A DNA stretch of 64,000 nucleotides from Thermococcus indicus (lineage in GTDB: Archaea; Methanobacteriota_B; Thermococci; Thermococcales; Thermococcaceae). The notes beneath the pieces are model-generated. The model searched no databases and had not been told where the DNA came from. It saw only the letters and a program-made list of their open reading frames with translations. This document shows, in pieces, positions 9,063 through 32,202 of the stretch. Numbering within the stretch: the first letter of the stretch is position 1; each line of letters opens with the position of its first letter. A program made the translations under genes and the position numbers. Location: positions 186,001-250,000 of the forward strand of contig NZ_CP040846.1 in the NCBI RefSeq assembly GCF_006274605.1. Reading direction: 5' to 3'.

Positions 9063-10607
9063 TCACTCATCTGAAAGGAAGCGGGAGAGGAGTCTCTTGA
9101 CCGGCCCGAGCTTTACCCCTGTCTTGGATTCAATGGCATCGAGAAGCTCGATGTCCTCCACTTCCACCGTTCTCAGGCCCAGTATGGTGGCCAGGTAAAC
9201 GAGGTAGCCAGCAACGGTGACCGGGATCGCAGTGAGCAGGTTATCCCTCACTCCCATCGCCGTCATCGCCACGGTCAGACCCAGTCCTGGGGCCAGAACC
9301 TTGATGTAGTTCCTCCCGAAGGGGTGTATCCCCGTCTTCCTGTGGAGCCACCAGGTTCTGTACAGGTTGGCGGTGACGTACGATACGGAAGTCGCCACCG
9401 CTGCTCCTTCTATGCCGTAGACCAGTATCAGCAGGACGTTCAGGGCCACGTTGGCGGCCGACGCGAAGATGTTACCGGTCATGTTTGCCCTTGGTTCCCC
9501 GACTGCTATGAGGCTCATTCCGTTGAGGCCCATCATCACGTGGAACATGAAGCCCGCCGAGAGTATCCTGAGGGCGGTGGCGGCGTCGGTGTACTTGGAT
9601 CCGAAGAACAGGTTGATGGCGCTCTCGGGAAAGGCGAAGACGAAGAGGAAGACCGGGAAGGTCAGTATGAAGACCCACCTGGTGGTGGTGCGGTACAGCT
9701 TCCTGAGCCCATCGATGTCCCCATTCGTGAAGAAGGCCGTTGCTATTGGCATGTAGAGGAAGCCCATCGAGTTCAGGAAGAGGGGTAAAAGTCTCGCTAT
9801 CGGCGCCGCGCCGTTGTAGAGGCCAACCGTGTCGGGGTCGAAGTAGTAGCCGAGCATCAGCGAATCCGTCCAGCCCATCACGTAATCGAGGATTCCGGTG
9901 AGCATTAGTGGAAGGGAGAACAGGAACAGTTCCCTCGCTATTCTCCAGTCGAGGATCGGCCTCCTCGGCAGGAAGCCGAGGCTGAGGGACTCGCGGACGA
10001 GAAGGGCCGAGGAGAGCACCTGGGAGAGGACGTAGGCGAGGAACACGAAGGTAAAACCCGCCCCGGTCAGGAGTCCAGTCACGAGAATGATCAAAAACAG
10101 GAGGGGTGGCAGGACGTTGCGGTAATACAGGTTCTCGCGCACTCGCCCATAGCCTCTGGAAACTGCAACGAGGAGCGCCGTCATGACCATGAAGGGCAGC
10201 GCGGGAGCGGCCAGCCGCAGGGTTTCCCCGAGATAGCGGTCGTTGAGGAGGGGAGCGATGTGGGGGGCCATGTAGAGAGTCACCGCAGTCATTATTAGAG
10301 AGGCTGTTACTGCCATTAGCAGGCCGGTGGTGATGAGCGCGGGAACTTCTTCCCGTTTTCCCTTTAGATTGCGGGATATCTCCCGAGGAAGACCGCTCTG
10401 GAGGCCCAGGAGAGAGATGGTCACAGCTATGCTCAGAACAGTGAGGGTCAGGGTGAACGAGCCGTACTGATACCTGTCAAAGTGGCGCGCTATTATTGCC
10501 CTGCTCAGAAAAGTGAGGAGCATTGAGATTACCGTGCCAGCTAGGACTATGCCCATACCCCGTGCAACCTTCTGGAGTGCCTTCCCAGTCTCGTCCAAGC
10601 TGCTCAC
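9063..10607 (-). CDS. Wzx-like polysaccharide/oligosaccharide flippase
   Basis: 514-residue membrane protein with about 14 hydrophobic segments, of the MOP/polysaccharide-biosynthesis flippase type. It would move a lipid-linked oligosaccharide across the cytoplasmic membrane. Typical features include the N-terminal region with YGSFTLTLTVLSIA and a central GWTDSLMLGYYFDPDTVGLYN motif shared by archaeal Wzx relatives. Its GC content is higher than that of the glycosyltransferases, suggesting a resident rather than newly acquired part of the island. GTG at 10607 is used; a TTG at 10598 with GGTGA in front is an alternative. A TTAAAAAG box near 10660-10670 serves it. Confidence 0.9.
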   Translation of the reverse strand: MSSLDETGKALQKVARGMGIVLAGTVISMLLTFLSRAIIARHFDRYQYGSFTLTLTVLSIAVTISLLGLQSGLPREISRNLKGKREEVPALITTGLLMAVTASLIMTAVTLYMAPHIAPLLNDRYLGETLRLAAPALPFMVMTALLVAVSRGYGRVRENLYYRNVLPPLLFLIILVTGLLTGAGFTFVFLAYVLSQVLSSALLVRESLSLGFLPRRPILDWRIARELFLFSLPLMLTGILDYVMGWTDSLMLGYYFDPDTVGLYNGAAPIARLLPLFLNSMGFLYMPIATAFFTNGDIDGLRKLYRTTTRWVFILTFPVFLFVFAFPESAINLFFGSKYTDAATALRILSAGFMFHVMMGLNGMSLIAVGEPRANMTGNIFASAANVALNVLLILVYGIEGAAVATSVSYVTANLYRTWWLHRKTGIHPFGRNYIKVLAPGLGLTVAMTAMGVRDNLLTAIPVTVAGYLVYLATILGLRTVEVEDIELLDAIESKTGVKLGPVKRLLSRFLSDE

Positions 10608-10747
10608 CCATCGGGAAGTGTATAGAACGCTACCAGCAAAAATCCTGCGGTCAGGACTTTTTAAGTTTCCTCTTGCCAGTTCTATCTGTTACACTATTAA
10701 GGGGGTTCCTTGGAAACAATTTTAAGCCCTCCCGAGAACTTCAGAAC

Positions 10748-10804
10748 GCGATGATGAGTGATGGGCGAACCGATTGATGAGGACGGAAAGGTGATCTCTG
10801 AGCA
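10748..10804 (+). ncRNA. Candidate box C/D guide RNA (less canonical)
   Basis: Box C ATGATGA 10751-10757; 12-nt guide 10758-10769; D'-like CCGA 10770-10773; C'-like TTGATGA 10774-10780; box D CTGA 10798-10801. The D'-C' spacer is missing and the second spacer is 17 nt, so it is less regular than its neighbour. The first guide can pair 11 positions (one G-U) with the remembered archaeal 23S A-loop flank UUCGCCCAU, which would place the methyl near E. coli C2558. The guide next to box D could pair with the 16S 3' end, but it contains GGTGAT and may do so trivially. A TTTTAAG box lies about 25 nt upstream. Confidence 0.6.
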
Positions 10805-10833
10805 ATCCTTTTAAGGCCCATCTTCAACCTTTT

Positions 10834-10894
10834 CCGGGATGATGAGTTCAGCCTTGCCTGAGGCTCGTGATGATGGAGTGACGGACTGACCGTC
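10834..10894 (+). ncRNA. Box C/D guide RNA, predicted 16S targets
   Basis: Textbook archaeal layout: box C ATGATGA 10839-10845, 12-nt guide, D' CTGA 10858-10861, C' GTGATGA 10867-10873, 12-nt guide, box D CTGA 10886-10889, with a CGG/CCG terminal stem. A CCTTTTAAGG box lies about 25 nt upstream. From remembered Thermococcales 16S rRNA, the D' guide pairs 11 contiguous positions with GCAAGGCUGAA and the D guide 11 positions with CCGUCACUCCA. The N-plus-5 rule then predicts 2'-O-methylation at G902 and U1406 (E. coli numbering), the latter in the decoding site. Both boxes, spacer lengths and targets agree, so this is a confident call. Confidence 0.88.
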
Positions 10895-10982: not shown

Positions 10983-11007
10983 CTTAAATATTGTGTGCAT
11001 ATGCACA
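10983..11007 (+). promoter_or_regulatory. TATA box and 14-bp palindrome at the cation efflux promoter
   Basis: CTTAAATA at 10983-10990 is the likely TATA box. The perfect palindrome TGTGCATATGCACA at 10994-11007 follows within 4 nt and covers the expected transcription start, a position where a bound protein would block initiation. It differs in sequence from the upstream DtxR-like site, so two regulators may act here. Confidence 0.55.
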
Positions 11008-11023
11008 AAATTGTGGTGATACC

Positions 11024-11884
11024 GTGGAGGAGGTGTACCGGCCCATCTGGGTCAGCATCCTTGGCAACGTTCTCCTTTCCCTGCTCAAGCTAGCCGTGGG
11101 TTTCATGTATTCCAGCATCGCCCTGATATCCGACGGCGTCCACTCCTTAAGCGACGTTATCACGAGCGTCATCGGCTACGCGGGCATTAGAATATCCTCA
11201 AAACCGCCCGACAAAAGCCATCCCTTCGGTCATTCCCGCTTTGAACCTCTGGTGGCGTTTTTAATCGGCGAGGCGCTTCTCATAGTGGCCTACGAGATAG
11301 GCCGTGATGCCGTTTACAGGATAATTGAGGGTGGAGCCATAGAAGTCAACTCCATAATGCTCGGCGTCACCCTGCTTTCGATACTCTCTAAGGAGCTCAT
11401 GTTCCGCTATTCTGTCCACATCGGCAGGAAGCTCAACAGCCAGATACTCGTCGCCGATGCATACCACCACAGGAGCGATGCACTGAGCAGCGTTGCGGTT
11501 CTAATCGGTCTCGGTGCCCAGGAACTCGGTTTTATGTACGGGGATTCCATCGCGGGCCTCGTCGTCGCGGTCTTCCTCCTGAAGGTCTCGCTGGACATAA
11601 TCCTTGAGAACCTCCGCTATCTGACGGGGCAGGCCCCGTCCTTTGAGGTCTGCGAGGAAATAAAGGAGCGTGCCCTGGGCGTCCCGAACGTTCTCGGCGT
11701 CCATGACCTGAGGGCTCACTACGTCGGCAGCAAACTGCACGTTGAGCTCCACATAGAGGTTCCCCCGGAGCTGAGCCTCAAAGAGGCCCATGACGTCAGC
11801 GAGGAGGTGAAGAGGGTTATAGAGAGCCTCCCCGAGGTTGAGGTCGCCTTCGTTCACGTGGACATAAAGGGGGTTACGGAGTGA
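11024..11884 (+). CDS. Cation diffusion facilitator (CDF) metal efflux protein
   Basis: CDF transporter of about 286 residues with six hydrophobic segments and a soluble C-terminal domain. Metal-site motifs DGVHSLSD (second helix) and DAYHHRSD (fifth helix) give the paired acidic/His ligands. It exports divalent metal (Mn, Fe, Zn or Co) in exchange for protons. The GTG at 11024 is preferred: GGTGAT lies about 5 nt before it, and the frame extension to TTG 10991 would start at the palindrome and TATA box. The DtxR-like operator upstream points to Fe or Mn as substrate, which is inference. Confidence 0.9.
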   Translation: MEEVYRPIWVSILGNVLLSLLKLAVGFMYSSIALISDGVHSLSDVITSVIGYAGIRISSKPPDKSHPFGHSRFEPLVAFLIGEALLIVAYEIGRDAVYRIIEGGAIEVNSIMLGVTLLSILSKELMFRYSVHIGRKLNSQILVADAYHHRSDALSSVAVLIGLGAQELGFMYGDSIAGLVVAVFLLKVSLDIILENLRYLTGQAPSFEVCEEIKERALGVPNVLGVHDLRAHYVGSKLHVELHIEVPPELSLKEAHDVSEEVKRVIESLPEVEVAFVHVDIKGVTE

Positions 11885-32145: not shown

Positions 32146-32202
32146 TGGGATGATGAGTCTGGAGCCCCCTGATCGGTGAGGAGGTTTCGCGGGGCTGACC
32201 GA
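32146..32202 (+). ncRNA. Box C/D guide RNA (targets not identified)
   Basis: Box C ATGATGA 32150-32156, 12-nt guide 32157-32168, D' CTGA 32169-32172, 3-nt spacer, C' GTGAGGA 32176-32182 (one change from consensus), 12-nt guide 32183-32194, box D CTGA 32195-32198, and a TTGG/CCGA terminal stem. A CTTATTAAC box lies about 28 nt upstream. Predicted targets are GGGGCUCCAGAC and CCCCGCGAAACC; I do not place them on rRNA or a tRNA with confidence. The 3' end abuts the next coding start. Confidence 0.83.

Follow-up and report, generated by a model that had tools for sequence, protein, structure and literature searches.

The question raised by this locus is whether the short interval separating a polysaccharide-flippase-type gene (9063-10607, minus strand) from a cation-efflux transporter gene (10991-11884, plus strand) in Thermococcus indicus encodes an RNA that steers ribose methylation to the decoding site of the ribosome. 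The window considered here is the whole stretch of DNA that was analysed, 64,000 nucleotides in length, in which a first-pass annotation, made from the letters alone, had placed a box C/D sRNA at this point; the covariance-model search and the directly read boxes bear it out. When the whole window is searched with Rfam covariance models, positions 10835-10891 of the plus strand match the box C/D family sR60 (RF01309) over the full length of the model (1-55 of 55); the score is 68.6 bits (E 8.9e-15), and the gathering threshold of the family is 50. RF01309 is described in Rfam as a box C/D sRNA belonging to clan CL00132. The locus is thus a real guide RNA, ordinary for the Thermococcaceae and of a family that is already catalogued.

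The boxes follow one another in the order C (RUGAUGA), D', C' and D (CUGA), as for archaeal methylation guides, and they lie where the first-pass annotation had set them. On the plus strand, box C (ATGATGA, 10839-10845) is followed by the D' guide GTTCAGCCTTGC (10846-10857), box D' (CTGA, 10858-10861), a D'-C' loop with the sequence GGCTC between 10861 and 10867, box C' (GTGATGA, 10867-10873), the D guide TGGAGTGACGGA (10874-10885), and box D (CTGA, 10886-10889). Both guides span 12 nt, the spacer length that had been claimed; archaeal C/D guides have spacers of about 10-12 nt (PMC7994747). The terminal stem, described earlier as canonical, is present and covaries among relatives, but it is short, comprising the three base pairs between CGG (10835-10837, plus strand) and CCG (10890-10892, plus strand), with one base skipped ahead of box C. 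A thermodynamic fold of the single sequence is uninformative (z -1.2), and the terminal stem is invisible there.

The targets can be read by aligning the guides with the only 16S gene of the genome (G000:C1:2080486-2081969), beside which lies the 23S gene. The D' guide is complementary to positions 845-855 of this 16S rRNA and the D guide to positions 1351-1361, in each case through 11 consecutive Watson-Crick pairs; counting five bases upstream of each box designates G849 and U1354, respectively. By reference to the landmark primers 907F and 1406R, we take these nucleotides to be G902 and U1406 in the E. coli numbering. The first-pass annotation was therefore correct as to both rRNA segments, the two target nucleotides, and the 11-base length of the duplexes, and the pairing of at least 10 bp to the genome's own rRNA that it had proposed as a check is found for both guides. 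Its view that two such matches would hardly arise by chance also holds up, since shuffled versions of the D' guide reach 11 Watson-Crick pairs anywhere in 16S and 23S rRNA in 0.29% of trials and those of the D guide in 0.08%, which gives a joint chance of about 2e-6 for shuffled guides. Real 12-mers taken from the window form 11 Watson-Crick pairs with the 16S and 23S rRNA in 0.37% of cases.

Conservation across the family extends this picture. Of 94 Thermococcaceae genomes, 90 have an sR60 match above the cut-off, and a match is found in 73 of the 74 genomes of good quality. Among 50 copies examined, the core of the D guide, GGAGTGACGG, which addresses U1406, is invariant, while the base ahead of it varies and the final base is A in 48 copies and T in two. 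Box C reads ATGATGA in 37 of these copies and ATGAGGA or ATGAAGA in the others. The terminal stem takes the forms CGG/CCG, CCC/GGG, and AAA/TTT in different genera, thus covarying, and retains all three pairs in 44 copies and two pairs in the remaining six. A chance C/D-like sequence that yields no RNA product, for which nothing was found in favour, can be considered practically negligible in view of the family-wide conservation, the covarying stem, and the two 11-bp matches to rRNA.

The two guides differ in how well their targets are maintained. The segment TTCAGCCT of the D' guide, including the base at the box+5 position, is unchanged in all 50 copies, whereas the three bases beside box D' are variable; in Pyrococcus, they are mostly AGG or AAG and remain unpaired, leaving a D' duplex of about 8 bp. 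Consequently, U1406 constitutes a family-wide prediction, while G902 is less certain. It might be argued from this variation that the D guide alone is functional, the pairing of D' with G902 being either a relic or an auxiliary contact; we consider this unlikely, since the D' pairing runs for 11 bp up to the box both here and in many Thermococcus relatives, and the constancy of TTCAGCCT speaks against it as well.

Transcription of sR60 may be controlled locally. A probable TATA element, CTTTTAAG, is located at 10809-10816 of the plus strand, about 25 nt upstream of sR60, and a T-rich run lies just 3' of the RNA. Relatives retain a comparable T/A element at the same place, and they do so also at five loci in which sR60 is separated by about 750 bp from sR1, the guide RNA that precedes it here. 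That the element stays with sR60 upon such separation suggests, at the level of sequence, that sR60 has a promoter of its own. The result of a sigma-70 promoter scan was set aside as irrelevant to an archaeon.

Taken together, the most likely explanation is that sR60 is a double-guide box C/D sRNA directing 2'-O-methylation at both G849 and U1354. According to this mechanism, the C/D and C'/D' motifs would be bound by L7Ae, Nop5, and fibrillarin. With the D' guide annealed to 845-855 and the D guide to 1351-1361 of the 16S rRNA, fibrillarin would then place a methyl on the 2'-OH of the rRNA nucleotide that pairs with the fifth guide base upstream of each box. The predicted products are a methyl at G849 (E. 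coli G902) in helix 27 and one at U1354 (E. coli U1406) in the decoding helix 44. The genes for fibrillarin (PF01269, 335.9 bits) and Nop5 (PF01798, 253 bits) adjoin in the genome. From the family assignment, the motifs, the pairing to the organism's own rRNA, the conservation, and these protein genes, all of which are directly observed, we infer the expression of sR60, the assembly of its RNP, and the methyls themselves. Judged by the guide match, sR60 very probably directs methylation in the decoding region.

A second guide RNA, absent from the first-pass annotation, lies on the same strand 31 nt upstream of sR60. It is the box C/D sRNA sR1 (10747-10803, plus strand; Rfam RF01152, 56.1 bits), whose D' guide (10758-10769) pairs with positions 1348-1358 of the own 16S rRNA in a duplex of 11 bp that includes a single G-U pair. 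Its box+5 position falls on C1350 (E. coli C1402), the predicted target, where sR1 probably makes a methyl. The 16S footprints of sR1 and sR60 share positions 1351-1358; thus, with 8 nt of rRNA in common, the two duplexes cannot both form in full simultaneously and the RNAs must act in turn. In a genome that we take to be that of P. abyssi, an sR1 with the same D' guide is found directly beside sR60.

Several further features of sR1 may be recorded. Its D' box reads CCGA and not CTGA, and its D guide (window positions 10784-10797, plus strand) contains GGTGATC, which is kept in relatives; this guide pairs over only 8 bp with GATCACCT at the 3' end of the 16S rRNA, i.e., the anti-Shine-Dalgarno region, which is a tentative target. 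Six copies of the same genus have sR1 and sR60 about 750 bp apart, and in the five of these loci that were read (L042, L047, L057, L059, and L038), the intervening stretch is occupied, on the opposite strand, by a PIN-domain (VapC-like) gene and its small partner in a VapBC-like layout. The PIN frame appears to be broken in at least two of them (L057 and L059).

The P. abyssi 30S subunit, studied by 3.2 Å cryo-EM and mass spectrometry, provides the sole direct datum found on methylation at U1406, and it is negative. In that work, Cm1376 is seen and aligned with E. coli C1402, its counterparts being Cm1639 in yeast, Cm1703 in humans, and m4Cm1402 in E. coli (PMC7005279). The occurrence of Cm1376 in an organism that carries the same sR1 D' guide supports this guide reading in a close relative. 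Within the available part of the report, only Am373, Cm1376, and ac4Cm250 are given as ribose methyls of the 16S rRNA; its table of modifications other than ac4C has no entry for the equivalent of 1406, and for that of 902 it shows no methylated ribose (PMC7005279). Since the sR60 of the presumed P. abyssi genome has the same D guide core as the one described here, the methyl at U1406 must be regarded as unproven.

It may accordingly be asked whether sR60 serves mainly as a folding chaperone that contacts helices 27 and 44 during 30S assembly, or modifies few ribosomes, with U1406 being methylated little or not at all. Such a role has been proposed for double-guide sRNAs (PMC7994747), and the excerpted P. 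abyssi data, with a methyl at Cm1376 (C1402) and none four bases further despite a conserved guide, would fit it (PMC7005279). However, the canonical boxes, the 12-nt spacers, and the intact box+5 register are what methylation needs and are conserved across the sR60 family; there is no mismatch near the target, and ribose methyls might have been overlooked in a map at 3.2 Å resolution. We therefore regard a predominantly chaperone function, or methylation of only a small fraction of ribosomes, as improbable and retain methylation guidance as the preferred reading. A bolder proposal, for which we would give slightly less than an even chance, is that Um1406 is present throughout the Thermococcaceae in the A-site region of helix 44, beside Cm1402, that it is installed by two neighbouring guides acting in turn across their 8-nt overlap, and that it has been overlooked in structures.

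Other records provide context. For seven other archaea, Dennis et al. (2015) reported relatively sparse predictions in helix 44, naming the positions of E. coli A1408 and G1494, and placed helix 27 among the regions of highest prediction density (PMC4644070). Our literature search found no 2'-O-methylation map of Thermococcales 16S rRNA and no paper linking the name sR60 with sRNA and archaea. The portion available of a circular-RNA table for T. kodakarensis has no entry at 1626305-1626359, the position of sR60 in the genome presumed to be that of this species. Within the window, a third C/D sRNA is located at 32148-32200 of the plus strand (Rfam sR23, RF01138, 74.8 bits). Outside the family, sR60 gives weak matches of 25-29 bits (L085-L092), which were rejected as sR60, as the readable ones represent a different C/D RNA, in which a D guide, GATGGGCGGT, stands before CTGA and pairs with ACCGCCCGTC, a pairing that designates C1402 and not U1406. 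These matches come from other families of the same class, in which the same site, C1402, would be reached with a different RNA.

The interest of the locus resides in a pair of conserved, adjacent guides aimed 4 nt apart, at 1402 and 1406, in the decoding helix. Should Um1406 be real, hyperthermophilic archaea would modify a decoding-centre nucleotide that has no modification entered in the three-domain table of the P. abyssi study, as far as that table is accessible (PMC7005279), and the sR1/sR60 pair would offer a handle on the part played by the 1402 and 1406 ribose methyls in decoding accuracy and heat stability. Should it not be real, sR60 would amount to a routine annotation.

With respect to known systems, the Cm1402-type methyl is a ribose methyl of the decoding region in the same stretch of helix 44 as the sR60 target, from which it is four nucleotides away; in the portion of the comparison available, no methyl is entered at the 1406 equivalent for the species compared (PMC7005279). 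sR1 (RF01152) and sR60 are both C/D RNAs directed at the same 16S segment with targets four bases apart; however, C1402 is addressed by the D' guide of sR1 and U1406 by the D guide of sR60. Compared with sR60 of Pyrococcus, the present copy and many others from Thermococcus have 2 nt more in the D'-C' loop and a D' guide whose pairing extends three bases further toward box D'. The boxes, guides, and terminal stem are otherwise the same as those of sR60 in RF01309, which occurs in nearly all of the Thermococcaceae searched.
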